Shown one piece after another: positions 26,785-62,713 of a stretch of 64,000 nt of DNA. Numbering within the stretch: the stretch's first letter is position 1; each line of letters opens with the position of its first letter. The notes beneath the pieces are model-generated. The model did no database searches, was not told the DNA's origin, and saw only the letters and a program-made list of their open reading frames with translations. Source of the DNA: Amphiura filiformis (taxonomy: Eukaryota; Echinodermata; Ophiuroidea; Amphilepidida; Amphiuridae); contig NC_092628.1 in NCBI RefSeq assembly GCF_039555335.1, forward strand, positions 74,526,713 to 74,590,712, written 5' to 3'. The position numbers and the translations under genes were made by a program.

Positions 26785-26849
26785 GTAAAAGACAAGTTGA
26801 TTTTGGTAAAGCTGTATTTAGTTTAGACTATGCCATAGTCGATTTTTGA

Positions 26850-27375: not shown

Positions 27376-27379
27376 TTAC

Positions 27380-27565: not shown

Positions 27566-28106
27566 TACTTGGGAAGCTAACAAACAGAGGGAGTACATTG
27601 ACTGAAATGATCCGATGTGAAAATCTATCAATTGTGCACAAATTAATATAAATCAGAGTTTAAGCTTAAATGCAATAGCCAGAGTATGCATAATTAAATG
27701 GGCAAGTGGACTACGGAGAAGTCTATATCTAGTTTAGTTTTCTAATCCTTCCTCATCGAACCGGTATTTCCAAGAATGACTTCATCAGCTTAACCCACTC
27801 AGTATAGGGGAAAGTTGGGTAATGGCGAACACCTTTTCTCTTGGGCTTCTAAATACAACAGACAAACATTGTAACATACAACCACACAAAGTACGAATGA
27901 AGTTCTACAAGGTGTCAAGCATTCATTGACAAAAACATTCCCCTTGGGACTTATGGCCACAAAATGGTCGCGTTTGCGATTACCCAGCGCCCTATTGGGA
28001 CTGGGTAATTACGAAAGGTATTAAAAAATATAAATGAGCTAAAGAATCTTGAATTTCTGGAAAGATAAGGGCATAAGCCAGCAGGCCTCGACAATTTTAC
28101 GCGAGA
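27566..28106. other. Left flank of the giant satellite element
   Basis: Intronic sequence with no recognised gene. It ends at the 9 bp direct repeat GTCCCGGCT (28107-28115). Confidence 0.45.
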
Positions 28107-28115
28107 GTCCCGGCT
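28107..28115 (+). other. 9 bp target-site duplication, left
   Basis: GTCCCGGCT directly abuts the left terminal inverted repeat. It is identical to 61762-61770. Confidence 0.75.
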
Positions 28116-28150
28116 GCAATATTTTTTTCCGTAGTTAACATTTGAATAGG
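28116..28150 (+). repeat. Left 35 bp terminal inverted repeat
   Basis: It begins GCAATATTTTTTTCCG and ends AACATTTGAATAGG. It pairs with 61727-61761, with mismatches only at positions 3, 5 and 6. Confidence 0.8.
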
Positions 28151-28269
28151 GAGTCTTCTATACATGTATCTATGTTAAAGCAGTAGGCCTATATACTAAG
28201 GTTTACATATTTTCACTATATATGACTGTGCTTAAGCATCATTATACTGATATTGTATACTGATATGGT

Positions 28270-30290
28270 ATATTATAATGGTATTAAAACCTGGATTCAA
28301 GTATTCTATATATAATATGTCTTTTTATATTATAAATATAATATATAATATGTCTTTTTATATTATTAATATAATGTGTTTTTGCCCTGTGTCTTGGTGT
28401 CATTGGTGACAAAACCTGGATTCAAGTATTCTATATATAATATGTCTTTTTATATTATATAATATAATGTGTTTTTGCCCTGTGTCTTGGTGTCATTGGT
28501 GACAAAACCTGGATTCGAGTATTCTATATATAATATGTCTTTTTATATTATAAATATAATGTGTTTTTGCCCTGTGTCTTGGTGTCATTGGTGACAAAAC
28601 CTGGATTCAAGTATTCTATATATAATATGTCTTTTTATATTATAAATATAATGTGTTTTTGCCCTGTGTCTTGGTGTCATTGGTGACAAAACCTGGATTC
28701 AAGTATTCTATATATAATATGTCTTTTTATATTATAAATATAATGTGTTTTTGCTCTGTGTCTTGGTGTCATTGGTGACAAAACCTGGATTCAAGTATTC
28801 TATATATATTATGTCTTTTTATATTATAAATATAATGTGTTTTTGCCCTGTGTCTTGGTGTCATTGGTGACAAAACCTGGATTCAAGTATTCTATATATA
28901 TTATGTCTTTTTATATTATAAATATATTGTACTTTTGCTCTGTGTCTGGGTGTCATTGGTGACAAAACCTGGATTCAAGTAGTCTATATATATTATGTCT
29001 TTTTATATTATAAGTATAATGTTTTTTTTGCCCTGTGTCTTGGTGTCATTGGTGACAAAACCTGGATTCAAGTATTCTATATATAATATGTCTTTTTATA
29101 TTATAAATATAATGTGTTTTTGCTCTGTGTCTTGGTGTCATTGGTGACAAAACCTGGATTCAAGTATTCTATATATATTATGTCTTTTTATATTATAAAT
29201 ATAATGTGTTTTTGCCCTGTGTCTTGGTGTCATTGGTGACAAAACCTGGATTCAAGTATTCTATATATATTATGTCTTTTTATATTATAAATATATTGTA
29301 CTTTTGCTCTGTGTCTGGGTGTCATTGGTGACAAAACCTGGATTCAAGTAGTCTATATATATTATGTCTTTTTATATTATAAATATAATGTGCTTTTGCT
29401 CTGTGTCTTGGTGTCATTGGTGACACAACCTGGATTCAAGTATTCTATGTATAATATGTCTTTTTATATTATAAATATAATGTGTTTTTGCTCTGTGTCT
29501 TGGTGTCATTGGTGACACAACCTGGATTCAAGTATTCTATATATAATATGTCTTTTTATATTATAAATATAATGTGTTTTTGCCCTGTGTCTTGGTGTCA
29601 TTGGTGACAAAACCTGGATTCAAGTATTCTATATATAATATGTCTTTTTATATTATAAATATAATGTGCTTTTGCTCTGTGTCTTGGTGTCATTGGTGAC
29701 AAAACCTGGATTCAAACATCCTTTACATAATGTCTTTTTATATTATAAATATAATGTGTTTTTGCTCTGTGTCTTGGTGTCATTGGTGACACAACCTGGA
29801 TTCAAGTATTCTATATATAATATGTCTTTTTATATTATAAATATAATGTGTTTTTTGCTCTGTGTCTTGGTGTCATTGGTGACAAAACCTGGATTCAAGT
29901 ATTCTTTATATATTATGTCTTTTTATATTATAAATATAATGTGCTTTTGCTCTGTGTCTTGGTGTCATTGGTGACAAAACCTGGATTCAAGTAGTCTATA
30001 TATATTATGTCTTTTTATATTATAAATATAATGTGCTTTTGCTCTGTGTCTTGGAGTCATTGGTGACACAACCTGGATTCAAGTATTCTATATATAATAT
30101 GTCTTTTTATATTATAAATATAATGTGTTTTTGCTCTGTGTCTTGGTGTCATTGGTGACACAACCTGGATTCAAGTATTCTATATATAATATGTCTTTTA
30201 TATTATAAATATAATGTGTTTTTGCCCTGTGTCTTGGTGTCATTGGTGACAAAACCTGGATTCAAGTATTCTATATATAATATGTCTTTT
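28270..30290 (+). repeat. 92 bp satellite array, + orientation, part 1
   Basis: About 22 tandem units. Each contains 'ccctgtgtcttggtgtcatt', then 'ggtgacaaaacctggattca', then an AT-rich half with 'tatgtctttttatattataa'. Variation is mostly single bases (CCC/CTC before TGTGTC, ACAAAACC/ACACAACC, TATTC/TAGTC). Since 92 is not divisible by 3, apparent ORFs of 70-103 codons are chance. Confidence 0.97.
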
Positions 30291-31701
30291 TAACCCCAGA
30301 CAAAATAATGAAATTGGAAGCAATGATTTGCGTCTTTGTCAGACGTTCAACAGACATATATGATTTATTTGCAATAAGTATGTAACACAAATATATAGCA
30401 TGCATATAAGGAATCAGCACCCAAAACCTGGACTTATTAGCAAAAACGATATTTAGATTTGCAAAGGACCCTGATGAACTATCAAAAGTCACCACCCCAG
30501 TGACCTACACAGTAAGGGCTTATAAATATCTTAAAATAAACAAGAATATTTTAGAGGACCTAGATGAAACCTATCTTAAGTCACCACCCTCGTGACCCCT
30601 ACAGAGGGAGCTGAATAATATCTTGTTAATAGAAAATATAAATATAAAATAAGGAATATTTAATATAGCACCCCAGATGACCTATCTGAAATCACATCCC
30701 CAGTGAACTACAAAAAGGGGAGATTATAAATATCCAAAACAAAGAGCACAGCCAGTAATATAAAAAATGATATGTGCTGAAACCTTTAACAATATTTGTG
30801 CATGCAAAATATATAATATATATTCCTGTAAGATGGTTTCCAGGAATCGTACATTCATATATATAGGGGAAATCCCTGACAGGTTAAATTGGATACTTGA
30901 TCCATACTAAAATGTCTACATACTTTAATTTGTGTGCATTTCTTATCCATACTTAAATAGATATATGTTTCAAATTAGAAAATCTCTGCCAGCGGATTTT
31001 AAATTTGATTAAATTGATGCTAATGCTTTAGCATTGCTCACTTCAAATGACATGGTTAGACATGTGTGTATTTTTAATCAACTACAGCTATCTCGTCCTT
31101 TTCTTTTAAACTTTTTGTTTGAAAAGCTAAAACATAAGAGATAACATTTAAATATATGCTTATTAGCCCAAGGAGAGAGATTCCGCCGAGATGTACATTT
31201 TACACGATGAACTTCAACTATCCGCAGGAAGTTCTTGATTGATATAGCAAAGGAAGGCACCTATCAAGAGTTTCATGATTTGAGCAATTACCGCTCTCAA
31301 AAGGAATTAGACGACTGCACCAAACCAATCATCAAATCACGAATATCGTGACCCAATCTTTGCTCTATCAATTACGTTAGAATTGCTTCTTTAACTTTAA
31401 CATAGAAACTTAAAATTGTCTTTATAAATTTTTCCGCACCACCACTAGCATACTCTCAATATGAAAAATTGCAAAGGGAGTGGTGGGTGGGAAAGAAAAT
31501 TTTTTAAACACAACCTAGTCTTGTTGAATCTGACAAAATAATGACGAAACAAGAGATGATCGGAATGCAAAACATCGCTTGTGTACCACGTGACTTGGCA
31601 ACAGTACACAAATTCACACAATAGGCCTTACCAACGGGGACCACAGCATTTATTCTGCAGGGGTTAAATTGGTTTTCAATTGATGGGATTGAAAACGTTA
31701 T
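30291..31701 (+). mobile_element. Helentron/Helitron2-like element, copy 1 (1.41 kb)
   Basis: It interrupts the satellite exactly between two T residues with no base duplicated. Removing 30291-36562 restores the unit 'tctttttatattat'. It begins TAACCCCAG and ends with a 9 bp stem, 7 nt loop hairpin (GTTTTCAAT / ATTGAAAAC) followed by GTTAT. A subterminal CAGGGGTTA about 40 bases upstream of the end is the inverse of the 5' terminus. T/T insertion, asymmetric inverted repeats and a 3' hairpin are described hallmarks of Helentron/Helitron2 elements. The first 699 bp and last 210 bp are shared with copy 2; the ~500 bp between are not. No Rep/helicase is encoded. Confidence 0.5.
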
Positions 31702-34700
31702 TAACCCCAGACAAAATAATGAAATTGGAAGCAATGATTTGCGTCTTTGTCAGACGTTCAACAGACATATATGATTTATTTGCAATAAGTATGTAACACA
31801 AATATATAGCATGCATATAAGGAATCAGCACCCAAAACCTGGACTTATTAGCAAAAACGATATTTAGATTTGCAAAGGACCCTGATGAACTATCAAAAGT
31901 CACCACCCCAGTGACCTACACAGTAAGGGCTTATAAATATCTTAAAATAAACAAGAATATTTTAGAGGACCTAGATGAAACCTATCTTAAGTCACCACCC
32001 TCGTGACCCCTACAGAGGGAGCTGAATAATATCTTGTTAATAGAAAATATAAATATAAAATAAGGAATATTTAATATAGCACCCCAGATGACCTATCTGA
32101 AATCACATCCCCAGTGAACTACAAAAAGGGAGATTATAAATATCCAAAACAAAGAGCACAGCCAGTAATATAAAAATGATATGTGCTGAAACCTTTAACA
32201 ATATTTGTGCATGCAAAATATATAATATATATTCCTGTAAGATGGTTTCCAGGAATCGTACATTCATATATATAGGGAAATCCCTGACAGGTTAAATTGG
32301 ATACTTGATCCATACTAAAATGTCTACATACTTTAATTTGTGTGCATTTCTTATCCATACTTAAATAGATATATGTTTCAAATTAGAAAATCTCTGCCAA
32401 AGAAGTTAATGGATCATGCAAGAACTGAATGAGAAATAAACTTCCCAATCCCCCCCCCCCAGATTTTTAAACATATTCTATTTATTCTTTAATTTTCATC
32501 AGTTAAGCCTGGGGGATATGGGAAGCTCTCTGGATGTTCTTTTGCCTGATATATAGGAGACCAAACGGTGACTGTGAGTGTAATCCCCTACCCATAGTGG
32601 TTTTGTCAATATTACGCATATCTGGATGAACTATATCTGTGGGTAATGACACGTTAACTCTGCTCTACAAATTTTGTGTGCCACTTGTTTATATTTCTGG
32701 TACATCTAAGCCCCGCACCATGTTTGTTATCATCAAACGAGAAGTGTGCCATGCTATAAAAGTGTACAGAGAACTAGGATAACATGCCTATTCTATAATA
32801 CAATAGGTCAACATACTTCTTGAATCAACGTGATAACTAGGCGGCTGCGCAACCTCACGAAAAAACTTGAACACAATTTTTTTATTTTTTATTTTGTTGA
32901 ACAAGAAAAATTTGAGGGCATAGTACTTGGCCCCTGCCTAGGCTATCCCATGCCAACCTGGAGTTGATTCCTTCCTTAGTATTAACAAACTTAATCGATC
33001 AAATCCCACATGCTAGACCGGCTTTCAATAAATATTTATTAAATAAAATACAATAGGGCAATTCATGGTTCTGAACAAGATGATCGTTAATTTAAAACAA
33101 TACAAAACAAAACAAAAACAAACATTCATGCTTCTGAAGCAGCAACTTGACACGTTCCTTGCTTATTAACTTATACCAATCTAACAATTGAATTCTTAAG
33201 TGTTCTTGTACTTAGCCTTAAATTTACATCTCCTTAATCCACTATATGATGTGCACATATTCAGTGTGCATTCCAAATGTTATGCATACTTTCATTAAAC
33301 AATTTTGAGTACCTAACAACTGAAAGTATAATTGATGACGCTGTACAAGTGTACATACCTGTCAAATGTTCAGAATGTCAGAAGATTGATTGCAGCAACT
33401 GCAGGACTTTGGGAACAGAGGTCTATTGGTCAGATGACATTCAAAAACCAAATAGACTGTCCCTTGTGAATGTTCAACATGCAACATCTTGAATTGGACA
33501 GGCAGAGTTGAAACATCACTCTTAAAATCACAATACCAGGTCAGTCATATTACTTATGACCCACAAGACAACAACGACGTACAATTGTACGTGATTTGTG
33601 ATTCTTACCAGATTGTACACCATTTTATGTTTTTTTTAAAAGTACTTGACATGATTCTTCCATTTTACGTAGTTTGTAGATAAAGCAACGTGCAACATTC
33701 AGTGTTAATTCAAAATGTGCAAATATAAGTCATTGATTGCTGCAATGTAGCTGCTACGTGGCTCCATGTCTAACTGAAGTAAACCCATTATCATGATTAT
33801 AGGTAAATGCTTGATGAAGAGATCACCGTCAAATATTATTGTGGTCATAAACAAATCTCCAGTCTCACGACAAGCAAGTTGAAGCAACACGTCTTCCCTC
33901 CTGTTACCTGATATAATCTGCAATGAAGAAAACAGAAAAAGGGAAGCAAATTGTGCAAGCAAAGGCTTTTGCATATATACAAGCCTGATTATTAATAAAA
34001 CTACCTTACTATATACTAAGGAGTTGAAAATTGAATTGATCTTGAACATGATTATTTTTCCATTTATTTTGTTCATTTATTTACCTCTTTATTTACTTTT
34101 CAACTTTTTAAATATGCCAGAAGGTCCAAGTGGAAAGGCAGTGTGCTCTGTTCCCACTATCTAGGCGAGCTTCACAAAGATGCTACCAAGTAGAGTAAAA
34201 CCAAATCTAGTAAAAACTATGCCGAGTTAATTTGGGCAAGTAAAAGGAATCGTACCAAGATCTACCAAACTTGTTTTACATCAGATGACTCTACTATTTT
34301 GCTTCCCTGATGATACATCTTCTATGAATTCCTTAAATGCCAACACCTATGCATATGTCAGAAAACCCATAAAACGATCTTCCAATTGTTAAATTATAGG
34401 GCTGCTACTCACTGTTAATATTTTCTGTAATTTACATACGAATGACTCTTAACTTTGACCTTCACCGATTGCCTTGAATGACCAAAATCCAACAACCTTT
34501 GCATATGTCAGAAAAACGACCTCCAAAATTGTTAAATTATAATGCTGCCCTTCCATGTTAGTATTTTATGCCAGAAAGGAAATCTGTTCACATATCCTAA
34601 CACTTACCGATTGCTTTAAACAATTTTCCAGGAATTTACATGAAAATCCAACCAAAATTTGACTTCCAGTAATTTCAAGCTTTTCCAAGAGCCACTAAAA

Positions 34701-36562
34701 TTCTTTAATCAGACTAAACGATTCACGAATATCCCACTTGTAATATCAGGATATCATATACCGCGCATCACTAATGCACCGCCAGCGATATTACTATATT
34801 GCATATCGCCCAACACTTGTTTACGATCTCTTGGCCATACTATCTTGGCAGATCACAATTGCTACTATATAAATGTAAACAGATTATTTATATCAGCGTT
34901 CGTGTCACTTTTATCTTAAGTTGATACATTATGTGACCGATGCAAATTATATGTGAAAACCCATAATTAAACTAAATAATAAACATTTTAATCATAACTG
35001 CTTCTTATTGGCACTCAAATTTCGTTTCGGACACAACTTGATATCGCAAGTTCAACATGTAAATATCTTTGTTTATGTGATACATGTTCGAATGACGTCA
35101 TACCATTAATAAATAACTTATGTAATTTCTCGTAAATGGGTTGATCAATAATCTGTTGATAGCACGCCACAGAAATCGGCTATTTGCAAAATCCCCAGGA
35201 CTGATTGACGGTAAACAATTAATACGCAATCATCTGCAATCATCGAGATCACCATTTAGTATTGCCAAACCCGCGATTTGGTAGCCCAATTGGGCGAATT
35301 TCGATTTTTATTTTTATTTTTATTATTATTATTATTTTTTTTGCGACTTTTGACAATTTCCTGACCTCAAAAACCCAATGATTAAGGAAACTTTTTGCGA
35401 CGTTTTAACATTTGGCTCCCATGACTTCCGATAGTTTCCTGTCCCATAAAGTTAAACCAAATTAAAACATTTTTGGAGACTTTTTGATTATTTGGCCAGC
35501 AATTCAAGCAGAAATTTTTTGGCAACCTGGTTTTGCGTTCTGCTTGTGTGAATATCACAGTTTGAAAAACTTAAAACCGTGTCAAGTGAAATTATAAAAT
35601 AAATCGCACTCGACCCAATGCCATTTTAAGGCTAAAACCCGGGATTGATTATAAAAGCAAATTTCTCACCGAATCAACTCATCATCTTGACTGCTCTCAA
35701 CACCACTGCCGGATAACGCCCGACGCTAGGTGACCCGTCCACGTAAAATTGTCACATTCCGCATTTAAAATACCAGCAACTTCGCCTCTCTTCTCACTCG
35801 GGTTAGTTTTGTCCAACTATTTGTATTATTTTATAAAATATTTAAGAGAATCCCAGACAATGTCACAATTTCCACTTGCCGCAGTACCATCACTATGATA
35901 ATATTGACGACTTTACTTGATTGCTGCAGCTAGTTGTTTCGTGCGTAAATTCAACAACGATTTTCCGTTCATGTAAAAAAGACTTTGGAATCGTAAGGGA
36001 ACCAAACTGGAACTATATCATTAGCCTATGATCGCACTTGCTTTCATAACCGATGAATTATCAGCTATGCACCTGGCGAGATGCTCTCGGTGATAGCAAA
36101 AATAGACATAAAATTCGATCCAGCTGGTGTTATATGCTCCTTTTCTCCCAATGTTCCACTCAAAGTTCTTGAAATTCCAAACCGCCGCACATATTTTTGT
36201 TGTATTTTTCCGACGAAAACCATCAATGAAAACATGGTCCACGCCACGAAATATTGTTGTAAATACACTTCCAAATTAATATATAAAGCTACTGGGATTA
36301 CTACTTATGAACGATGGTTAAATTGTAAAATCTGCAAACTAAAAAACTTCCGAAAGAAAATTTTTTAAACACAACCTAGTCTTGTTGAATCTGACAAAAT
36401 AATGACGAAACAAGAGATGATCGGAATGCAAAACATCGCTTGTGTACCACGTGACTTGGCAACAGTACACAAATTCACACAATAGGCCTTACCAACGGGG
36501 ACCACAGCATTTATTCTGCAGGGGTTAAATTGGTTTTCAATTGATGGGATTGAAAACGTTAT
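31702..36562 (+). mobile_element. Helentron/Helitron2-like element, copy 2 (4.86 kb)
   Basis: It is head-to-tail with copy 1 without any intervening base. 31704-32399 repeats 30293-30991 with a few indels. 36352-36561 repeats 31491-31700, identical by eye over 210 bp. The ~3.95 kb interior (32400-36351) is unrelated to copy 1. It contains a C homopolymer run at 32450, mixed unique-looking sequence and one exon-like stretch on the - strand (33705-33920). No Rep or helicase motif was seen, so it appears non-autonomous and possibly carries captured DNA. The superfamily assignment rests on the ends and the insertion site. Confidence 0.5.
33705..33920 (-). CDS. Exon-like fragment inside copy 2, unidentified
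   Basis: On the - strand a strong acceptor (long pyrimidine stretch ending TTCATTGCAG) ends at 33921. It is followed by an open frame reading IISGNRREDVLLQLACRETG, then FDGDLFIKHLPIIMIMGLLQ, then MEPRSSYIAAINDLYLHILN, to a TAA at 33705. Composition is protein-like. I do not recognise a family and could not locate upstream exons. In a Helitron-like element, captured gene pieces of this kind are common. Chance cannot be excluded. Confidence 0.3.
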   Translation of the reverse strand, partial: QIISGNRREDVLLQLACRETGDLFMTTIIFDGDLFIKHLPIIMIMGLLQLDMEPRSSYIAAINDLYLHILN

Positions 36563-39500
36563 TATATTATAAATATAATGTGTTTTTGCCCTGTGTCTTG
36601 GTGTCATTGGTGACAAAACCTGGATTCAAGTATTCTATATATAATATGTCTTTTTATATTATAAATATAATGTGTTTTTGCCCTGTGTCTTGGTGTCATT
36701 GGTGACAAAACCTGGATTCAAGTATTCTATATATAATATGTCTTTTTATATTATAAATATAATGTGGTTTTGCTCTGTGTCTTGGTGTCATTGGTGACAC
36801 AACCTGGATTCAAGTATTCTATATATAATATGTCTTTTTATATTATAAATATAATGTGTTTTTTGCTCTGTGTCTTGGTGTCATTGGTGACAAAACCTGG
36901 ATTCAAGTATTCTATATATATTATGTCTTTTTATATTATAAATATAATGTGTTTTTGCCCTGTGTCTTGGTGTCATTGGTGACAAAACCTGGATTCAAGT
37001 ATTCTATATATATTATGTCTTTTTATATTATAAATATATTGTACTTTTGCTCTGTGTCTGGGTGTCATTGGTGACAAAACCTGGATTCAAGTAGTCTATA
37101 TATATTATGTCTTTTTATATTATAAATATAATGTGTTTTTGCCCTGTGTCTTGGTGTCATTGGTGACAAAACCTGGATTCAAGTATTCTATATATAATAT
37201 GTCTTTTTATATTATAAATATAATGTGTTTTTGCTCCGTGTCTTGGTGTCATTGGTGACAAAACCTGGATTCAAGTATTCTATATATATTATGTCTTTTT
37301 ATATTATAAATATAATGTGTTTTTTTTTTTTTTTTTGGTGTCATTGGTGACAAAACCTGGATTCAAGTATTCTATATATATTATGTCTTTTATATTATAA
37401 ATATATTGTACTTTTGCTCTGTGTCTGGGTGTCATTGGTGACAAAACCTGGATTCAAGTAGTCTATATATATTATGTCTTTTTATATTATAAATATAATG
37501 TGCTTTTGCTCTGTGTCTTGGTGTCATTGGTGACACAACCTGGATTCAAGTATTCTATGTATAATATGTCTTTTATATTATAAATATAATGTGTTTTTTT
37601 GCTCTGTGTCTTGGTGTCATTGGTGACACAACCTGGATTCAAGTATTCTATATATAATATGTCTTTTTATATTATAAATATAATGTGTTTTTGCCCTGTG
37701 TCTTGGTGTCATTGGTGACAAAACCTGGATTCAAGTATTCTATATATAATATGTCTTTTTATATTATAAATATAATGTGCTTTTGCTCTGTGTCTTGGTG
37801 TCATTGGTGACAAAACCTGGATTCAAACATCCTTTACATAATGTCTTTTTATATTATAAATATAATGTGTTTTTGCTCTGTGTCTTGGTGTCATTGGTGA
37901 CACAACCTGGATTCAAGTATTCTATATATAATATGTCTTTTTATATTATAAATATAATGTGTTTTTGCTCTGTGTCTTGGTGTCATTGGTGACAAAACCT
38001 GGATTCAAGTATTCTTTATATATTATGTCTTTTTATATTATAAATATAATGTGTTTTTGCTCTGTGTCTGGGTGTCATTGGTGACAAAACCTGGATTCAA
38101 GTAGTCTATATATATTATGTCTTTTTGTATTATAAATATAATGTGCTTTTGCTCTGTGTCTTGGAGTCATTGGTGACACAACCTGGATTCAAGTATTCTA
38201 TATATAATATGTCTTTTTATATTATAAATATAATGTGTTCTTGCTCTGTGTCTTGGTGTCATTGGTGACACAACCTGGATTCAAGTATTCTATATATAAT
38301 ATGTCTTTTTATATTATAAATATAATGTGTTTTTGCCCTGTGTCTTGGTGTCATTGGTGACAAAACCTGGATTCAAGTATTCTATATATAATATGTCTTT
38401 TTATATTATAAATATAATGTGTTTTTGCCCTGTGTCTTGGTGTCATTGGTGACAAAACCTGGATTCAAGTATTCTATATATAATATGTCTTTTTATATTA
38501 TAAATATAATGTGTTTTTGCCCTGTGTCTTGGTGTCATTGGTGGCAAAACCTGGATTCAAGTATTCTATATATAATATGTCTTTTTATATTATAAATATA
38601 ATGTGTTTTTGCTCTGTGTCTTGGTGTCATTGGTGACACAACCTGGATTCAAGTATTCTATATATAATATGTCTTTTTATATTATAAATATAATGTGTGT
38701 TTTTTGCTCTGTGTCTTGGTGTCATTGGTGACAAAACCTGGATTCAAGTATTCTATATATATTATGTCTTTTTATATTATAAATATAATGTGTTTTTGCT
38801 CTGTGTCTTGGTGTCATTGGTGACAAAACCTGGATTCAAGTATTCTATATATATTATGTCTTTTATATTATAAATATAATGTGTTTTTGCCCTGTGTCTT
38901 GGTGTCATTGGTGACAAAACCTGGATTCAAGTATTCTATATATATTATGTCTTTTTATATTATAAATATAGTGTACTTTTGCTCTGTGTCTGGGTGTCAT
39001 TGGTGACAAAACCTGGATTCAAGTAGTCTATATATATTATGTCTTTTTATATTATAAATATAATGTGCTTTTTTGCTCTGTGTCTTGGTGTCATTGGTGA
39101 CACAACCTGGATTCAAGTATTCTATATATATTATGTCTTTTTATATTATAAATATAATGTGTTTTTGCTCTGTGTCTTGGTGTCATTGGTGACACAACCT
39201 GGATTCAAGTATTCTATATATAATATGTCTTTTTATATGATAAGTATAATGTGTTTTTGCCCTGTGTCTTGGTGTCATTGGTGACAAAACCTGGATTCAA
39301 GTATTTATATATAATATGTCTTTTTATATTATAAATATAATGTGTTTTTGCCCTGTGTCTTGGTGTCATTGGTGACAAAACCTGGATTCGAGTATTCTAT
39401 ATATAATATGTCTTTTTATATTATAAATATAATGTGTTTTTGCCCTGTGTCTTGGTGTCATTGGTGACAAAACCTGGATTCAAGTATTCTATATATAATA

Positions 39501-39922
39501 TGTCTTTTTATATTATAAATATAATGTGCTTTTGCTCTGTGTCTTGGTGTCATTGGTGACACAACCTGGATTCAAGTATTCTATATATAATATGTCTTTT
39601 TATATTATAAATATAATGTGTTTTTGCTCTGTGTCTTGGTGTCATTGGTGACACAACCTGGATTCAAGTATTCTATATATAATATGTCTTTTTATATTAT
39701 AAATATAATGTGTTTTTTGCTCTGTGTCTTGGTGTCATTGGTGACAAAACCTGGATTCAAGTATTCTATATATATTATGTCTTTTTATATTATAAATATA
39801 ATGTGTTTTGCCCTGTGTCTTGGTGTCATTGGTGACAAAACCTGGATTCAATCATCCTATACAAAATATGTCTTTTTATATTATAATTATAATGTGCTTT
39901 TGCTCTGTGTCTTGGTGTCATT
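36563..39922 (+). repeat. 92 bp satellite array, + orientation, part 2
   Basis: About 36 more units of the same satellite resume at the exact position where part 1 stopped. One unit has a T18-type homopolymer (about 37320). Variant units at 37824 ('caaacatcctttacata') and 38159 ('ttggagtcattgg') repeat those at 29714 and 30050, marking a ~1.84 kb (20-unit) internal duplication once the inserted elements are subtracted. Confidence 0.97.
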
Positions 39923-47300: not shown

Positions 47301-50300
47301 CACCAATGACACCAAGACACAGGGCAAAAACACATTATATTTATAATATAAAAAGACATATTATATATAGAATACTTGAATCCAGGTTTTGTCACCAATG
47401 ACACCAAGACACAGGGCAAAAACACATTATATTTATAATATAAAAAGACATATTATATATAGAATACTTGAATCCAGGTTTTGTCACCAATGACACCAAG
47501 ACACAGGTCAAAAAACACATTATATTTATAATATAAAAAGACATATTATATATAGAATACTTGAATCCAGGTTGTGTCACCAATGACACCAAGACACAGA
47601 GCAAAAACACATTATATTTATAATATAAAAAGACATAATATTATAAAGGCTCCTTGAATCCAGGTTGTGTCACCAATGACACCAAGACACAGAGCAAAAA
47701 GCACATTATATTTATAATATAAAAAGACATAATATATATAGACTACTTGAATCCAGGTTTTGTCACCAATGACACCCAGACACAGAGCAAAAGTACAATA
47801 TATTTATAATATAAAAAGACATAATATATATAGAATACTTGAATCCAGGTTGTGTCACCAATGACACCAAGACACAGAGCAAAAACACATTATATTTATA
47901 ATATAAAAAGACATATTATGTAAAGGATGTTTGAATCCAGGTTTTGTCACCAATGACACCAAGACACAGAGCAAAAGCACATTATATTTATAATATAAAA
48001 AGACATATTATATATAGAATACTTGAATCCAGGTTTTGTCACCAATGACACCAAGACACAGGGCAAAAACACATTATATTTATAATATAAAAAGACATAT
48101 TATATATAGAATACTTGAATCCAGGTTTTGTCACCAATGACACCAAGACACAGGGCAAAAACACATTATATTTATAATATAAAAAGACATATTATATAAA
48201 GAATACTTGAATCCAGGTTTTGTCACCAATGACACCAAGACACAGATCAAAAACACATTATATTTATAATATAAAAAGACATATTATATATAGAATACTT
48301 GAATCCAGGTTTTGTCACCAATGACACCAAGACACAGGGCAAAAACACATTATATTTATAATATAAAAAGACATATTATATATAGAATACTTGAATCCAG
48401 CTTTTGTCACCAATGACACCAAGACACAGGGCAAAAACACATTATATTTATAATATAAAAAGACATATTATATATAGAATACTTGAATCCAGGTTTTGTC
48501 ACCAATGACACCAAGACACAGGGCAAAAGAAGATGATATTTAGAATATAAAAAGACATATTATATATAGAATACTTGAATCCAGGTTGTGTCACCAATGA
48601 CACCAAGACACAGAGCAAAAGCACATTATAATTATAATATAAAAAGACATATTTTGTATAGGATGATTGAATCCAGGTTTTGTCACCAATGACACCAAGA
48701 CACAGGGCAAAAACACATTATATTTATAATATAAAAAGACATAATATATATAGAATACTTGAATCCAGGTTTTGTCACCAATGACACCAAGACACAGAGC
48801 AAAAACACATTATATTTATAATATAAAAAGACATATTATATATAGAATACTTGAATCCAGGTTGTGTCACCAATGACACCAAGACACAGAGCAAAACCAC
48901 ATTATATTTATAATATAAAAAGACATATTATATATAGAATACTTGAATCCAGGTTGTGTCACCAATGACACCAAGACACAGAGCAAAAGCACATTATATT
49001 TATAATATAAAAAGACATATTATATATAGAATACTTGAATCCAGGTTTTGTCACCAATGACACCAAGACACAGGGCAAAAACACATTATATTTATAATAT
49101 AAAAAGACATATTATATATAGAATACTGAATCCAGGTTTTGTCACCAATGACACCAAGACACAGGGCAAAAACACATTATATTTATAATATAAAAAGACA
49201 TATTATATATAGAATACTTGAATCCAGGTTTTGTCACCAATGACACCAAGACACAGGTCAAAAAACACATTATATTTATAATATAAAAAGACATATTATA
49301 TATAGAATACTTGAATCCAGGTTGTGTCACCAATGACACCAAGACACAGAGCAAAAACACATTATATTTATAATATAAAAAGACATAATATTATATATAG
49401 AATACTTGAATCCAGGTTGTGTCACCAATGACACCAAGACACAGAGCAAAAGCACATTATATTTATAATATAAAAAGACATAATATATATAGACTACTTG
49501 AATCCAGGTTTTGTCACCAATGACACCCAGACACAGAGCAAAAGTACAATATATTTATAATATAAAAAGACATAATATATATAGAATACTTGAATCCAGG
49601 TTGTGTCACCAATGACACCAAGACACAGAGCAAAAAACACATTATATTTATAATATAAAAAGACATATTATGTAAAGGATGTTTGAATCCAGGTTTTGTC
49701 ACCAATGACACCAAGACACAGAGCAAAAAGACATTATATTTATAATATAAAAAGACATATTATATATAGAATACTTGAATCCAGGTTTTGTCACCAATGA
49801 CACCAAGACACAGGGCAAAAACACATTATATTTATAATATAAAAGACATATTATATATAGAATACTGGAATCCAGGTTTTGTCACCAATGACACCAAGAC
49901 ACAGGGCAAAAACACATTATATTTATAATATAAAAAGACATATTATATATAGAATACTTGAATCCAGGTTTTGTCACCAATGACACCAAGACACAGGGCA
50001 AAATCACATTATATTTATAATATAAAAAGACATATTATATATAGAATACTTGAAGCCAGGTTGTGTCACCAATGACACCAAGACACAGAGCAAAAACACA
50101 TTATATTTATAATATAAAAAGACATATTATATATAGAATACTTGAATCCAGGTTGTGTCACCAATGACACCAAGACACAGAGCAAAAAAACATAATATTT
50201 ATAATATAAAAAGACATAATATATATAGACTACTTGAATCCAGGTTTTGTCACCAATGACACCCAGACACAGAGCAAAAGTACAATATATTTATAATATA

Positions 50301-53300
50301 AAAAGACATGATATATATAGAATACTTGAATCCAGGTTTTGTCACCAATGACACCAAGACACAGGGCAAAAACACATTATATTTATAATATAAAAAGACA
50401 TAATATATAAAGAATACTTGAATCCAGGTTTTGTCACCAATGACACCAAGACACAGAGCAAAAAACACATTATATTTATAATATAAAAAGACATATTATA
50501 TATAGAATACTTGAATCCAGGTTGTGTCACCAATGACACCAAGACACAGAGCAAAAAACACATTATATTTATAATATAAAAAGACATATTATGTAAAGGA
50601 TGTTTGAATCCAGGTTTTGTCACCAATGACACCAAGACACAGAGCAAAAGCACATTATATTTATAATATAAAAAGACATATTATATATAGGATGATTGAA
50701 TCCAGGTTTTGTCACCAATGACACCAAGACACAGAGCAAAAAACACTTATATTTATAATATAAAAAGACATAATATATATAGAATGCTTGAATCCAGGTT
50801 TTGTCACCAATGACACCAAGACACAGAGCAAAAGCACATTATATTTATAATATAAAAAGACATATTATATAAAGGATGATTGAATCCAGGTTTTGTCACC
50901 AATGACACCAAGACACAGAGCAAAAACACATTATATTTATAATATAAAAAGACATAATATATATAGAATGCTTGAATCCAGGTTCTGTCACCAATGACAC
51001 CAAGACACAGAGCAAAAGCACATTATATTTATAATATAAAAAGACATATTATATATAAGATGATTGAATCCAGGTTTTGTCACTAATGACACCAAGACAC
51101 AGAGCAAAAAACACATTATATTTATAATATAAAAAGACATATTATATAAAGGATGATTGAATCCAGGTTTTGTCACCAATGACACCAAGACACAGAGCAA
51201 AAGCACATTATATTTATAATATAAAAAGACATATTATATGTAGGATGATTGAATCCAGGTTTTGTCACCAATGACACCAAGACACAGAGCAAAAGCACAT
51301 TATATTTATAATATAAAAAGACATATTATGTATAGGATGATTGAATCCAGGTTTTGTCACCAATGACACCAAGACACAGAGCAAAAAACACATTATATTT
51401 ATAATATAAAAAGACATAATATATATAGAATGCTTGAATCCAGGTTTTGTCACCAATGACACCAAGACACAGAGCAAAAAGCACATTATATTTATAATAT
51501 AAAAAGACATATTATATATAAGATGATTGAATCCAGGTTTTGTCACCAATGACACCAAGACACAGAGCAAAAGCACATTATATTTATAATATAAAAAGAC
51601 ATATTATATATAGGATGATTGAATCCAGGTTTTGTCACCAATGACACCAAGACACAGAGCAAAAAGCACATTATATTTATAATATAAAAAGACATATTAT
51701 ACACAAGATGATTGAATCCAGGTTTTGTCACCAATGACACCAAGACACAGAGCAAAAGCACATTATATTTATAATATAAAAAGACATATTATATATAGGA
51801 TGATTGAATCCAGGTTTTGTCACCAATGACACCAAGACACAGAGCAAAAGCACATTATATTTATAATATAAAAAGACATATTATATATAAGATGATTGAA
51901 TCCAGGTTTTGTCACCAATGACACCAAGACACAGAGCAAAAGCACATTATATTTATAATATAAAAAGACATATTATATATAAGATGATTGAATCCAGGTT
52001 TTGTCACCAATGACACCAAGACACAGAGCAAAAGCACATTATATTTATAATATAAAAAGACATATTATATATAGAATACTTGAATCCAGGTTTTGTCACC
52101 AATGACACCAAGACACAGGGCAAAAACACATTATATTTATAATATAAAAAGACATATTATATATAGAATACTTGAATCCAGGTTTTGTCACCAATGACAC
52201 CAAGACACAGAGCAAAAACACATTATATTTATAATATAAAAAGACATATTATATATAGAATACTTGAATCCAGGTTTTGTCACCAATGACACCAAGACAC
52301 AGGGCAAAAACACATTATATTTATAATATAAAAAGACATATTATATATAGAATACTTGAATCCAGCTTTTGTCACCAATGACACCAAGACACAGGGCAAA
52401 AACACATTATATTTATAATATAAAAAGACATATTATATATAGAATACTTGAATCCAGGTTTTGTCACCAATGACACCAAGACACAGGGCAAAAACACATT
52501 ATATTTATAATATAAAAAGACATATTATATATAGAATACTTGAATCCAGGTTGTGTCACCAATGACACCAAGACACAGAGCAAAAGCACATTATAATTAT
52601 AATATAAAAAGACATATTTTGTATAGGATGATTGAATCCAGGTTTTGTCACCAATGACACCAAGACACAGGGCAAAAAAACACATTATATTTATAATATA
52701 AAAAGACATAATATATATAGAATACTTGAATCCAGGTTTTGTCACCAATGACACCAAGACACAGAGCAAAAACACATTATATTTATAATATAAAAAGACA
52801 TATTATATATAGAATACTTGAATCCAGGTTGTGTCACCAATGACACCAAGACACAGAGCAAAACCACATTATATTTATAATATAAAAAGACATATTATAT
52901 ATAGAATACTTGAATCCAGGTTGTGTCACCAATGACACCAAGACACAGAGCAAAAGCACATTATATTTATAATATAAAAAGACATATTATATATAGAATA
53001 CTTGAATCCAGGTTTTGTCACCAATGACACCAAGACACAGGGCAAAAACACATTATATTTATAATATAAAAAGACATATTATATATAGAATACTTGAATC
53101 CAGGTTTTGTCACCAATGACACCAAGACACAGGGCAAAAAACACATTATATTTATAATATAAAAAGACATATTATATATAGAATACTTGAATCCAGGTTT
53201 TGTCACCAATGACACCAAGACACAGGGCAAAAACACATTATATTTATAATATAAAAAGACATATTATATATAGAATACTTGAATCCAGGTTGTGTCACCA

Positions 53301-56122
53301 ATGACACCAAGACACAGAGCAAAAACACATTATATTTATAATATAAAAAGACATATATATATATAGAATACTTGAATCCAGGTTGTGTCACCAATGACAC
53401 CAAGACACAGAGCAAAAGCACATTATATTTATAATATAAAAAGACATAATATATATAGACTACTTGAATCCAGGTTTTGTCACCAATGACACCCAGACAC
53501 AGAGCAAAAGTACAATATATTTATAATATAAAAAGACATAATATATATAGAATACTTGAATCCAGGTTTTGTCACCAATGACACCAAGACACAGGGCAAA
53601 AACACATTATATTTATAATATAAAAAGACATAATGTATATAGAATACTTGAATCCAGGTTTTGTCACCAATGACACCAAGACACAGAGCAAAAAACACAT
53701 TATATTTATAATATAAAAAGACATAATATATATAGAATACTTGAATCCAGGTTTTGTCACCAATGACACCAAGACACAGAGCAAAAACACATTATATTTA
53801 TAATATAAAAAGACATATTATATATAGAATACTTGAATCCAGGTTGTGTCACCAATGACACCAAGACACAGAGCAAAACCACATTATATTTATAATATAA
53901 AAAGACATATTATATCTAGAATACTTGAATCCAGGTTTTGTCACCAATGACACCAAGACACAGGGCAAAAAACACATTATATTTATAATATAAAAAGACA
54001 TATTATATATAGAATACTTGAATCCAGGTTTTGTCACCAATGACACCAAGACACAGGGCAAAAAACACATTATATTTATAATATAAAATGACATATTATA
54101 TATAGAATACTTGAATCCAGGTTTTGTCACCAATGACACCAAGACACAGGGCAAAAACACATTATATTTATAATATAAAAAGACATATTATATATAGAAT
54201 ACTTGAATCCAGGTTGTGTCACCAATGACACCAAGACACAGAGCAAAAACACATTATATTTATAATATAAAAAGACATATTATATATAGAATACTTGAAT
54301 CCAGGTTGTGTCACCAATGACTCCAAGACACAGAGCAAAAGCACATTATATTTATAATATAAAAAGACATAATATATATAGACTACTTGAATCCAGGTTT
54401 TGTCACCAATGACACCCAGACACAGAGCAAAAGTACAATATATTTATAATATAAAAAGACATAATATATATAGAATACTTGAATCCAGGTTTTGTCACCA
54501 ATGACACCAAGACACAGGGCAAAAACACATTATATTTATAATATAAAAAGACATAATATATATAGAATACTTGAATCCAGGTTTTGTCACCAATGACACC
54601 AAGACACAGAGCAAAAGCACATTATATTTATAATATAAAAAGACATATTATGTATAGGATGATTGAATCCAGGTTTTGTCACCAATGACACCAAGACACA
54701 GAGCAAAAACACATTATATTTATAATATAAAAAGACATAATATATATAGAATGCTTGAATCCAGGTTTTGTCACCAATGACACCAAGACACAGAGCAAAA
54801 GCACATTATATTTATAATATAAAAAGACATATTATATATAAGATGATTGAATCCAGGTTTTGTCACCAATGACACCAAGACACAGAGCAAAAGCACATTA
54901 TATTTATAATATAAAAAGACATATTATATATAGGATGATTGAATCCAGGTTTTGTCACCAATGACACCAAGACACAGAGCAAAAGCACATTATATTTATA
55001 ATATAAAAAGACATATTATACACAAGATGATTGAATCCAGGTTTTGTCACCAATGACACCAAGACACAGAGCAAAAGCACATTATATTTATAATATAAAA
55101 AGACATATTATATATAGGATGATTGAATCCAGGTTTTGTCACCAATGACACCAAGACACAGAGCAAAAACACATTATATTTATAATATAAAAAGACATAT
55201 TATATATAAGATGATTGAATCCAGGTTTTGTCACCAATGACACCAAGACACAGAGCAAAAAGCACATTATATTTATAATATAAAAAGACATATTATATAT
55301 AAGATGATTGAATCCAGGTTTTGTCACCAATGACACCAAGACACAGAGCAAAAGCACATTATATTTATAATATAAAAAGACATATTATATATAGAATACT
55401 TGAATCCAGGTTTTGTCACCAATGACACCAAGACACAGGGCAAAAACACATTATATTTATAATATAAAAAGACATATTATATATAGAATACTTGAATCCA
55501 GGTTTTGTCACCAATGACACCAAGACACAGAGCAAAAACACATTATATTTATAATATAAAAAGACATATTATATATAGAATACTTGAATCCAGGTTTTGT
55601 CACCAATGACACCAAGACACAGGGCAAAAACACCTCATATTTATAATATAAAAAGACATATTATATATAGAATACTTGAATCCAGCTTTTGTCACCAATG
55701 ACACCAAGACACAGGGCAAAAAACACATTATATTTATAATATAAAAAGACATATTATATATAGAATACTTGAATCCAGGTTTTGTCACCAATGACACCAA
55801 GACACAGGGCAAAAACACATTATATTTATAATATAAAAAGACATATTATATATAGAATACTTGAATCCAGGTTGTGTCACCAATGACACCAAGACACAGA
55901 GCAAAAGCACATTATAATTATAATATAAAAAGACATATTTTGTATAGGATGATTGAATCCAGGTTTTGTCACCAATGACACCAAGACACAGGGCAAAAAC
56001 ACATTATATTTATAATATAAAAAGACATAATATATATAGAATACTTGAATTCAGGTTTTGTCACCAATGACACCAAGACACAGAGCAAAAGCACACTATA
56101 TTTATAATATAAAAAAAGACAT
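41331..56122 (-). repeat. 92 bp satellite array, - orientation, part 1
   Basis: About 160 units of the same 92 bp satellite, complementary to the left arm ('ccaggttttgtcaccaatga', 'caccaagacacag', 'tataatataaaaagacat'). Recurrent variant units mark higher-order structure: 'ggttctgtcacc' at 45271 and 50981, 'tattatacacaagatgattg' at 45981, 51695 and 55014, and 'gtacaatatatttataa' with 'cacccagacacag' at many places. One junction at about 44010 has a partial unit duplicated. Confidence 0.97.
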
Positions 56123-56354
56123 ACACCACGAATGAAGCCGTAAATGTCCTCAATTGTATTCTGAGTTACAGTGTAAAATGGGCATGAAGGTCATATTCAT
56201 AGGTATTTCAATTTGGTGCTACGTGTATCTCATTAAATGAGGTACACGTAGCACCAAATTGAGGTACCTATGAATACGACCTTCATGCCCATTTTACACT
56301 GTAACTCAGAATACAATTGAGGACATTTACGGCTCATTCGTGGTGTACGGTCAC
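56123..56354. mobile_element. ~230 bp hairpin MITE inserted in the satellite
   Basis: A near-perfect palindrome centred at about 56236. Landmarks 'acaccacgaatga', 'ctgagttacagtgtaaaatg' and 'caccaaattga' occur in both arms. It breaks one satellite unit. ACAT occurs on both sides (56119-56122 and 56352-56355) and may be the target duplication. The arm sequence matches the element ends at 12090-12672. Confidence 0.8.
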
Positions 56355-59300
56355 ATATTATATATAGAATACTTGAATCCAGGTTGTGTCACCAATGACA
56401 CCAAGACACAGAGCAAAACCACATTATATTTATAATATAAAAAGACATATTATATATAGAATACTTGAATCCAGGTTGTGTCACCAATGACACCAAGACA
56501 CAGAGCAAAAAGCATATTATATTTATATATAAAAAGACATATTATATATAGAATACTTGAATCCAGGTTTTGTCACCAATGACACCAAGACACAGGGCAA
56601 AAAACACATTATATTTATAATATAAAAAGACATATTATATATAGAATACTGAATCCAGGTTTTGTCACCAATGACACCAAGACACAGGGCAAAAACACAT
56701 TATATTTATAATATAAAAAGACATATTATATATAGAATACTTGAATCCAGGTTTTGTCACCAATGACACCAAGACACAGGGCAAAAACACATTATATTTA
56801 TAATATAAAAAGACATATTATATATAGAATACTTGAATCCAGGTTGTGTCACCAATGACACCAAGACACAGAGCAAAAACACATTATATTTATAATATAA
56901 AAAGACATAATATATATATAGAATACTTGAATCCAGGTTGTGTCACCAATGACACCAAGACACAGAGCAAAAGCACATTATATTTATAATATAAAAAGAC
57001 ATAATATATATAGACTACTTGAATCCAGGTTTTGTCACCAATGACACCCAGACACAGAGCAAAAGTACAATATATTTATAATATAAAAAGACATAATATA
57101 TATAGAATACTTGAATCCAGGTTTTGTCACCAATGACACCAAGACACAGGGCAAAAACACATTATATTTATAATATAAAAAGACATAATGTATATAGAAT
57201 ACTTGAATCCAGGTTTTGTCACCAATGACACCAAGACACAGAGCAAAAACACATTATATTTATAATATAAAAAGACATAATATATATAGAATACTTGAAT
57301 CCAGGTTTTGTCACCAATGACACCAAGACACAGAGCAAAAACACATTATATTTATAATATAAAAAGACATATTATATATAGAATACTTGAATCCAGGTTG
57401 TGTCACCAATGACACCAAGACACAGAGCAAAACCACATTATATTTATAATATAAAAAGACATATTATATCTAGAATACTTGAATCCAGGTTTTGTCACCA
57501 ATGACACCAAGACACAGGGCAAAAACACATTATATTTATAATATAAAAAGACATATTATATATAGAATACTTGAATCCAGGTTTTGTCACCAATGACACC
57601 AAGACACAGAGCAAAAGCACATTATATTTATAATATAAAAAGACATATTATATATAGGATGATTGAATCCAGGTTTTGTCACCAATGACACCAAGACACA
57701 GGGCAAAAACACATTATATTTATAATATAAAAAGACATATTATATATAGAATACTTGAATCCAGGTTGTGTCACCAATGACACCAAGACACAGAGCAAAA
57801 ACACATTATATTTATAATATAAAAAGACATATTATATATAGAATACTTGAATCCAGGTTGTGTCACCAATGACTCCAAGACACAGAGCAAAAGCACATTA
57901 TATTTATAATATAAAAAGACATAATATATATAGACTACTTGAATCCAGGTTTTGTCACCAATGACACCCAGACACAGAGCAAAAGTACAATATATTTATA
58001 ATATAAAAAGACATAATATATATAGAATACTTGAATCCAGGTTTTGTCACCAATGACACCAAGACACAGGGCAAAAACACATTATATTTATAATATAAAA
58101 AGACATAATATATATAGAATACTTGAATCCAGGTTTTGTCACCAATGACACCAAGACACAGAGCAAAAGCACATTATATTTATAATATAAAAAGACATAA
58201 TATATAAAGAATACTTGAATCCAGGTTTTGTCACCAATGACACCAAGACACAGAGCAAAAACACATTATATTTATAATATAAAAAGACATATTATATATA
58301 GAATACTTGAATCCAGGTTGTGTCACCAATGACACCAAGACACAGAGCAAAAACACATTATATTTATAATATAAAAAGACATATTATGTAAAGGATGTTT
58401 GAATCCAGGTTTTGTCACCAATGACACCAAGACACAGAGCAAAAGCACATTATATTTATAATATAAAAAGACATGATATATATAGAATACTTGAATCCAG
58501 GTTTTGTCACCAATGACACCAAGACACAGGGCAAAAACACATTATATTTATAATATAAAAAGACATATTATATATAGAATACTTGAATCCAGGTTGTGTC
58601 ACCAATGACACCAAGACACAGAGCAAAAACACATTATATTTATAATATAAAAAGACATATTATACATAGAATACTTGAATCCAGGTTGTGTCACCAATGA
58701 CACCAAGACACAGAGCAAAAGCACATTATATTTATAATATAAAAAGACATAATATATATAGACTACTTGAATCCAGGTTTTGTCACCAATGACACCCAGA
58801 CACAGAGCAAAAAGTACAATATATTTATAATATAAAAGACATAATATATATAGAATACTTGAATCCAGGTTTTGACACCAATGACACAAAGACACAGGGG
58901 AAAAATACATTATATATATAATATAAAAAGACATAATATATATAGAATACTTGAATCCAGGTTTTGTCACCAATGACACCAAGACACAGAGCAAAAACAC
59001 ATTATATTTATAATATAAAAAGACATATTATATATAGAATACTTGAATCCAGGTTTTGTCACCAATGACACCAAGACACAGGGCAAAAAACACATTATAT
59101 TTATAATATAAAAAGACATAATATATATAGACTACTTGAATCCAGGTTTTGTCACCAATGACACCCAGACACAGAGCAAAAAAGTACAATATATTTATAA
59201 TATAAAAAGACATAATATATATAGAATACTTGAATCCAGGTTTTGTCACCAATGACACCAAGACACAGGGCAAAAAACACATTATACTTATAATATAAAA

Positions 59301-61640
59301 AGACATAATATATATAGAATACTTGAATCCAGGTTTTGTCACCAATGACACCAAGACACAGAGCAAAACCACATTATATTTATAATATAAAAAGACATAT
59401 TATATCTAGAATACTTGAATCCAGGTTTTGTCACCAATGACACCAAGACACAGGGCAAAAACACATTATATTTATAATATAAAAAGACATATTATATATA
59501 GAATACTTGAATCCAGGTTTTGTCACCAATGACACCAAGACACAGGGCAAAAACACATTATATTTATAATATAAAATGACATATTATATATAGAATACTT
59601 GAATCCAGGTTTTGTCACCAATGACACCAAGACACAGGGCAAAAACACATTATATTTATAATATAAAAAGACATATTATATATAGAATACTTGAATCCAG
59701 GTTGTGTCACCAATGACACCAAGACACAGAGCAAAAACACATTATATTTATAATATAAAAAGACATATTATATATAGAATACTTGAATCCAGGTTGTGTC
59801 ACCAATGACTCCAAGACACAGAGCAAAAGCACATTATATTTATAATATAAAAAGACATAATATATATAGACTACTTGAATCCAGGTTTTGTCACCAATGA
59901 CACCCAGACACAGAGCAAAAGTACAATATATTTATAATATAAAAAGACATAATATATATAGAATACTTGAATCCAGGTTTTGTCACCAATGACACCAAGA
60001 CACAGGGCAAAAACACATTATATTTATAATATAAAAAGACATAATATATATAGAATACTTGAATCCAGGTTTTGTCACCAATGACACCAAGACACAGAGC
60101 AAAAGCACATTATATTTATAATATAAAAAGACATAATATATAAAGAATACTTGAATCCAGGTTTTGTCACCAATGACACCAAGACACAGAGCAAAAACAC
60201 ATTATATTTATAATATAAAAAGACATATTATATATAGAATACTTGAATCCAGGTTGTGTCACCAATGACACCAAGACACAGAGCAAAAACACATTATATT
60301 TATAATATAAAAAGACATATTATGTAAAGGATGTTTGAATCCAGGTTTTGTCACCAATGACACCAAGACACAGAGCAAAAACACATTATATTTATAATAT
60401 AAAAAGACATATTATATATATAGAATACTTGAATCCAGGTTTTGTCACCAATGACACCAAGACACAGGGCAAAAACACATTATATTTATAATATAAAAAG
60501 ACATATTATATATAGAATACTTGAATCCAGGTTGTGTCACCAATGACACCAAGACACAGAGCAAAAACACATTATATTTATAATATAAAAAGACATATTA
60601 TACATAGAATACTTGAATCCAGGTTGTGTCACCAATGACACCAAGACACAGAGCAAAAAGCACATTATATTTATAATATAAAAAGACATAATATATATAG
60701 ACTACTTGAATCCAGGTTTTGTCACCAATGACACCCAGACACAGAGCAAAAGTACAATATATTTATAATATAAAAAGACATAATATATATAGAATACTTG
60801 AATCCAGGTTTTGTCACCAATGACACCAAGACACAGGGCAAAAACACATTATATTTATAATATAAAAAGACATAATATATATAGAATACTTGAATCCAGG
60901 TTTTGTCACCAATGACACCAAGACACAGAGCAAAAACACATTATATTTATAATATAAAAAGACATATTATATATAGAATACTTGAATCCAGGTTTTGTCA
61001 CCAATGACACCAAGACACAGGGCAAAAACACATTATATTTATAATATAAAAAGACATAATATATATAGACTACTTGAATCCAGGTTTTGTCACCAATGAC
61101 ACCCAGACACAGAGCAAAAGTACAATATATTTATAATATAAAAAGACATAATATATATAGAATACTTGAATCCAGGTTTTGTCACCAATGACACCAAGAC
61201 ACAGGGCAAAAACACATTATATTTATAATATAAAAGACATAATATATATAGAATACTTGAATCCAGGTTTTGTCACCAATGACACCAAGACACAGAGCAA
61301 AAACACATTATATTTATAATATAAAAAGACATATTATATATAGAATACTTGAATCCAGGTTTTGTCACCAATGACACCAAGACACAGGGCAAAAACACAT
61401 TATATTTATAATATAAAAAGACATATTATATATAGAATACTTGAATCCAGGTTTTGTCACCAATGACACCAAGACACAGGGCAAAAACACATTATATTTA
61501 TAATATAAAAAGACATATTATATATAGAATACTGAATCCAGGTTTTGTCACCAATGACACCAAGACACAGGGCAAAAACACATTATATTTATAATATAAA
61601 AAGACATATTATATATAGAATACTGAATCCAGGTTTTGTA
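56355..61640 (-). repeat. 92 bp satellite array, - orientation, part 2
   Basis: About 57 further units up to a final partial unit ending near 61640. 61641-61726 holds degenerate unit-like sequence ('gattgaatgtgggttttgac') leading into the right terminal repeat. Confidence 0.97.
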
Positions 61641-61726
61641 GACATTTTATGTATATACGATTGAATGTGGGTTTTGACACATCTGGATTTGGAGACACCA
61701 TGTATATGGATCTTTTTAAACTACCT

Positions 61727-61761
61727 CCTATTCAAATGTTAACTACGGAAAAAAAGTTCGC
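61727..61761 (-). repeat. Right 35 bp terminal inverted repeat
   Basis: Complement of 28116-28150 at 32 of 35 positions. It ends CGGAAAAAAAGTTCGC directly against the 9 bp repeat. Confidence 0.8.
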
Positions 61762-61770
61762 GTCCCGGCT
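61762..61770 (+). other. 9 bp target-site duplication, right
   Basis: GTCCCGGCT, identical to 28107-28115. Confidence 0.75.
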
Positions 61771-62671: not shown

Positions 62672-62713
62672 GTATAATATATCTAAAGTATTTGTATATA
62701 TGTATAATATTAA

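Follow-up and report, generated by a model that had tools for sequence, protein, structure and literature searches.

The DNA analysed here, a 64-kb window (64,000 nucleotides, the whole of the stretch under study), contains a 33.6 kb unit in which two opposed arms of a 92 bp satellite surround a 1.4 kb centre, most likely within an intron of a channel gene. How did a block of satellite DNA of this size come to lie inside a gene, and did the satellite travel there with a transposon, grow within one, or arrive by another path?

Structure of the element

The edges of the unit carry the marks of cut-and-paste insertion (Table 1). The 9 bp sequence GTCCCGGCT forms a perfect direct repeat with exactly two + strand copies in the window, at 28107 and 61762, and its reverse complement has no occurrence in the window; from the base composition, the probability that two given 9-mers match by chance is about 1e-5. 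Adjoining this repeat are 35 bp inverted ends that agree at 32 of 35 positions, the mismatches being the third, fifth and sixth bases counted from the tip and the inner 29 bases being identical (28122-28150 on the + strand and 61727-61755 on the - strand). No further copy of the 29-base end exists in the window at up to three mismatches, and none appeared in 100 shuffles. The initial annotation of this DNA had described 35 bp inverted ends (32/35) abutting a perfect 9 bp repeat and had read the whole as a single bounded transposon-like unit; the description is borne out, with no further copies of either sequence in the window, and the ends together with the duplication give the reading good support.

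Table 1. Positions of the element, its parts and its host gene in the window
Feature	Position	Strand	Remarks
Predicted host gene, TRPM-type channel, N-terminal SLOG/LSDAT domain	14211..62762	+	PF18139 matches in ORFs
Left copy of the 9 bp target-site duplication, GTCCCGGCT	28107..28115	+	No third copy in the window
Left terminal inverted repeat, 35 bp	28116..28150	+	32/35, inner 29/29 identical to right end
Left subterminal segment, 133 bp	28151..28283	+	No relation to the right segment
Left satellite arm, outer part	28284..30293	+	Outermost monomer of 125 bp, then 20 called monomers
Left-arm insertion, 6.27 kb	~30294-36561	+	Edges placed to within a few bases
Left satellite arm, inner part	36562..39926	+	35 called monomers
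Centre, 1.4 kb	39927..41330	.	16/26 bp minisatellite in both orientations
Right satellite arm	41331..61639	-	220 profile matches, 215 full monomers called; numerous internal block duplications
Palindromic MITE-like insertion in right arm, 226 bp	56122..56347	.	Near-perfect palindrome
Right subterminal segment, 87 bp	61640..61726	-	Borderline likeness of one part to a decayed monomer
Right terminal inverted repeat, 35 bp	61727..61761	-
Right copy of the 9 bp target-site duplication, GTCCCGGCT	61762..61770	+

When a profile of the 92 bp monomer was run across the window (E up to 1), it gave 280 matches, 60 on the + strand in the left arm and 220 on the - strand in the right arm, and none in the rest of the window. 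These strand-specific matches confirm the opposed arrays and the 1.4 kb centre reported in the initial annotation, to whose account of the arrays we add one insertion in each arm, a strong inequality of the arms and a second minisatellite in the centre. The satellite measures 5,375 bp on the left without the insertion versus 20,309 bp on the right with the small insertion included, and monomers share on average 95.7% identity in the left arm, 94.8% in the right arm and 95.0% across the two. Monomers were called only where 80-100 bp separated the anchors, which yielded 55 + 215 = 270 monomers versus 280 profile matches; because of this limit, the outermost left monomer (125 bp, carrying a 33 bp internal duplication), the monomer split by the palindromic element and the truncated inner monomers are absent from the monomer matrix. 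The left arm has a sharp inner edge, stopping within a monomer.

Between the ends and the arrays lie subterminal segments that show no relation to each other when the left 133 bp and right 87 bp are aligned (the score is equalled or exceeded by 218 of 500 shuffles in global alignment and by 391 of 500 in local alignment). The left segment bears no likeness to the monomer (166 of 300 shuffles are as good), and the right end including its 87 bp segment is a borderline case, scoring 47 in alignment with the monomer versus 46 for the best of 300 mononucleotide shuffles. Unrelated subterminal segments set between near-identical sequences are unexpected for a simple inverted repeat formed in one piece with its ends, and conversion or template switching restricted to the arrays could leave such segments.

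The centre contains a minisatellite with units of 16 and 26 bp (TTAGAGATAGCGAACC), in which 40555-40615 is opposed to approximately 40691-41200 and complementarity reaches, for example, 94% over 53 nt and 100% over 34 nt; it is a second, smaller foldback within the first. The centre has at least 12 ORFs, and the 10 that were scanned match no Pfam family. No transposase was found among the scanned ORFs (10 in the centre, 12 in the left-arm insertion and 8 elsewhere in the window), nor was a DDE transposase with a PHD finger among those of the centre and the insertion. The searches also returned no RNA family at the gathering threshold and no tRNA. Exact words of 19-24 bases drawn from the ends, satellite sequence and centre minisatellite had no match in viral contigs, and those drawn from the ends and satellite sequence had none in prokaryote genomes; for an animal host, these zeros carry little weight.

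Each arm is interrupted once. The left-arm insertion consists of two head-to-tail relatives of about 1.41 kb and 4.86 kb with common ends and different interiors, sharing approximately 700 bp at the 5' end (99.4% identity) and 213 bp at the 3' end (100%). Set 4 bases in from the 3' end is a hairpin with a 10 bp stem, equalled by the folds of 2 of 200 shuffles, and no clear duplication flanks the insertion, which by its shape we take to be a Helitron- or Helentron-like tandem insertion. It has at least 14 ORFs, and the 12 scanned gave nothing near the cut-off (best E 0.07). The palindromic element in the right arm has a relative at 12549-12675 in the same window that is 84-85% alike.

Position within the host gene

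Matches to PF18139 occur in collinear order in + strand ORFs at 14.2 kb (profile positions 6-71), 15.4 kb (61-108) and 62.4 kb (175-228), and an ORF at 26.6 kb has a weak match to profile positions 120-161 that is below the cut-off (E 0.12). Because the element is placed between the TRPM domain ORFs at 26.6 kb and 62.4 kb, the insertion site is most likely an intron of the predicted TRPM gene. Some of the flanking sequence recurs within the window, and none of the matches of these repeats touches the junctions of the element. The flanks include two tandem copies of a 94 bp sequence (83% alike) at 27376-27564, about 540 bp outside the left edge, and a dispersed repeat family, 77-79% alike, with members on both sides of the element at 62192-62315, 26095-26291 and 22847-22941. 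Farther out lies a CTCTC-rich simple repeat of 312 bp (7207-7518), and the ORF fragments at 5959-6739, which have no Pfam support, resemble part of a LINE reverse-transcriptase protein.

Mirror order of the monomers

When the monomers of each arm are numbered from the outer end, the two arms present their variants in the same order. Left monomers 1-17 and right monomers 1-17 show 9 column differences overall at offset 0, with combinations of changes (for example A32T A58T G62A T63C T79G) that agree at positions 6 and 10 and a five-change variant common to both arms at position 15. Of 196 right-arm offsets compared with left monomers 1-19, offset 0 gives the fewest differences, 19, against 30 for the next best (offset 21) and a mean of 85. 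Chained inwards from the outer end, 53 left monomers find partners among right monomers 1-57, with two gaps of 2 monomers; this best chain scores 67.9, versus no more than 5.8 in 8 permutations and 8.7 in 60 permutations of the right-arm order; as a local chain, the same score compares with at most 13.4 in 10 permutations and 12.4 for the reversed order. In a scan of starting points, offsets 0-5 are the best 6 of 150, with scores dropping from 67.9 to 55.2, and since these six share one chain they are not independent.

At the DNA level, the 53 pairs are identical at 4821 of 4858 positions (99.2%, with 37 mismatches and 29 small indels), compared with 95.4% for random left-right pairs and 95.6-96.2% for registers displaced by 1, 2, 3 or 5 monomers. 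The correspondence runs on to the end of the left arm: left monomer 54 fits both pieces of the right monomer that the palindromic element interrupts (35/35 and 52/54, checked separately), left monomer 55 and right monomer 58 share 89 matches with 1 mismatch, and the truncated last left monomer equals right monomer 59 over 87/87 bases, the variant not being confined to right monomer 59. Since the outer pairs are near-identical and follow a common order from the ends, the arms look like mutual copies, matching from the outside in, and not like independent satellite blocks that face each other by chance. This mirror order, which was not part of the initial annotation, strengthens its foldback reading.

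The outer 20 pairs differ by 3 mismatches and 10 indels in 1834 bases. Outward of the left-arm insertion there are 3 mismatches in 1834 bases, versus 34 in 3024 inward of it, and the differences per monomer are 0.65 and 1.61, respectively (permutation P = 0.004, or 0.007 without one outlier, in a post hoc test). The low divergence of the outer stretch may mark a recent, later conversion tract. At the site of the left-arm insertion the right monomers are uninterrupted, and the right monomer split by the palindrome still fits its left partner; as each insertion occurs in one arm only and the monomers of the opposite arm still match, both probably came after the arms were copied.

The register is clear at the outer end, is not unique beyond the outer 17 monomers and becomes ambiguous towards the centre. 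Single-copy exact k-mers gave it no support, most of them falling outside it; because differences in homopolymer length break exact words and duplicates within an arm are excluded, the test was redone with homopolymers collapsed. Among the best 25 of 111 collapsed exact matches, the longest lies in the outer register (left 736-1358) and the fourth-longest (left 234-730) adjoins it in the same register, while the second and third longest assign the left arm's last 532 bp, next to the centre, to two deeper positions in the right arm, so that the support these 25 matches give the register is confined to the outer end. Anchored position by position at the inner end, the arms show no register, and a chain anchored at the inner end of the left arm scores 29.4 and jumps to approximately right monomer 94. 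A rival chain outside the register, whose last pair is left monomer 55 with right monomer 94, reaches 54.8 because the right arm contains block duplications, which are spaced by, for example, 21, 35, 36, 43 and 62 monomers and are identical over as many as 798 collapsed bases (roughly 1.1 kb). A whole-arm MAFFT alignment was discarded, its mostly 95-97% identity reflecting a largely wrong register, and the monomer-anchored comparison was used instead.

In the outer register, the right arm continues for about 14 kb past the point at which the left arm stops, with numerous block duplications, and most of its length has no in-register counterpart on the left. The differences among blocks are a weak test of whether this growth preceded or followed the copying of the arms. 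One block of 17 monomers has 11 differences between its right-arm copies, 22 between left and right and 16 between left and the duplicate, and another, overlapping cut of the block agrees (right-right 11 versus left-right 20); in four other blocks the right-right and left-right differences are 15 versus 11, 21 versus 20, 25 versus 26 and 68 versus 31.

Relation to known foldback elements

By its structure the unit is a foldback element, as this class is recognised by terminal inverted ends that enclose long inverted arms with tandem repeats, and by a target-site duplication next to the ends; both features are present. Drosophila Foldback and sea-urchin TU elements have long inverted arms consisting partly of tandem repeats, and 9 bp duplications are made by Foldback and by Mutator-like elements. 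Helitrons are not known to produce a target-site duplication or to have terminal inverted repeats of this kind; the 9 bp duplication and the 35 bp inverted ends speak against a Helitron or Helentron as carrier of the satellite. The length of the duplication falls within the 8-11 bp range of Mutator-like elements (MULEs; PMC6446971, in the part consulted), and perhaps leans the assignment towards that group.

We compared the element with four systems as they are described in excerpts of the published accounts. Tetris of Drosophila virilis is the closest in kind: it is a non-autonomous foldback element with AT-rich tandem repeats of about 220 bp within its inverted repeats, which measure up to 1,735 bp, and with 8-10 bp duplications, and its arrays, the long ones of up to 66 copies, grew into satellite DNA (PMC4079207). 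Unlike Tetris, as far as the descriptions can be compared, the unit studied here holds 280 monomer matches of 92 bp between intact ends and an intact duplication, and has strongly unequal arms. The connection of satellite amplification with transposition is less novel than the initial annotation implied, since Tetris already ties foldback inverted repeats to satellite growth (PMC4079207). Closest in the anatomy of the tips is Tm1 of root-knot nematodes, with 9 bp duplications, asymmetric 7 bp tips lying outside the symmetric part and composite inverted repeats whose tandem motifs differ in number between the arms (PMC3169594); in the present element, likewise, the mismatches between the ends are restricted to the vicinity of the tips. 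The excerpted account of Tm1 gives a motif of 13-15 bp, one whole element of 1,080 bp and a known Phantom-type Mutator transposase (PMC3169594), unlike the 92 bp monomer and the scanned ORFs, free of transposase, of the present element. Tetris and Tm1 are close precedents, and the element is a large version of a known foldback kind.

Rehavkus shares the 9 bp duplication and a minisatellite inside the element, and has inverted repeats of 26-400 bp and a transposase with a PHD finger (PMC6446971); in the account consulted, its minisatellite lies only before the 3' inverted repeat, unlike the arrangement here, and the PHD-finger transposase is absent from the scanned ORFs. Galileo, of the P superfamily, is foldback-like and varies in inverted-repeat length through internal tandem repeats, but differs, in the same kind of excerpt, in its 7 bp flanking sequences and inverted repeats of up to about 1.25 kb (PMC3573991).

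Origin of the satellite arms

We consider it quite likely that the unit, at this single locus, is a non-autonomous foldback-type cut-and-paste transposon in a TRPM intron, within which the satellite arms have grown. A transposase encoded elsewhere probably moved it, with a Mutator-like enzyme as the best guess from the 9 bp duplication. The 92 bp satellite would be part of the element's own arms, and one arm would have been rewritten as an inverted copy of its partner, through gene conversion between them or through template switching during gap repair; the right arm may then have reached 20 kb by duplication of blocks or by unequal exchange. The element probably acquired most of its length where it now lies, so that what jumped was probably a unit of less than 33.6 kb. 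We lean to growth in place because the right arm has large near-identical blocks and there is no sign that a large unit has moved. The initial annotation had allowed that the satellite was mobilised as, or grew inside, one transposon: the wealth of near-identical block duplications in the right arm favours growth inside, and mobilisation as such is the less favoured half of that statement.

Other histories would leave some of the same traces. A short element with these ends might have inserted and later captured an unrelated genomic satellite, which expanded and was copied across without ever being the element's own arms; the shortness of the ends and the unrelated subterminal segments would suit this, and capture of tandem repeats by a MITE is proposed for Xenopus miDNA4 in the portion of that work consulted (PMC12628747), but both arrays start near the ends in the same order from the edge, and a monomer-like stretch extends, at borderline score, into the right subterminal segment, so we think capture unlikely. 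A similarly small chance attaches to a variant of our preferred explanation in which all or most of the 33.6 kb moved in a single transposition: the perfect duplication does bracket the entire unit, but the near-identical block duplications of the right arm indicate growth after the arms were copied, although the timing test is weak.

Long tandem arrays are difficult to assemble, and an assembly artefact, or else a chromosomal inversion inside a satellite block, might imitate opposed arms. Neither would be expected to yield a 9 bp duplication directly next to 35 bp inverted ends, and the 37 substitutions in 53 pairs, together with a different insertion in each arm, are unlike a folded read, which makes this account very improbable. 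Composite foldback units are known in Drosophila, and two separate inverted elements mobilised through their outer ends could in principle produce such a unit; however, no copy of the ends lies at the inner edges of the arms and the window holds just two end matches, leaving a composite with hardly any likelihood.

A bolder extension of growth inside a foldback transposon, which we put forward as speculation and rate as doubtful, is that transposition itself makes and renews the satellite arms: after excision, gap repair would copy an arm onto its partner and switch template within the array, and each round would lengthen, mirror and homogenise the arrays. If true, foldback elements would be satellite-DNA engines that place units of tens of kilobases into genes.

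Implications

The unit is bounded and retains intact ends and an intact duplication, and the inverted arms of this one element consist of a satellite with 280 monomer matches; satellite DNA appears here to have grown as the arms of a single transposon. The mirror order of monomer variants records the copying of the arms and the growth of the arrays, and the order of these events is therefore testable in alleles and relatives. A transcript of the intron would carry a hairpin of several kilobases, and the element suggests a route by which a block of satellite DNA may enter an intron.
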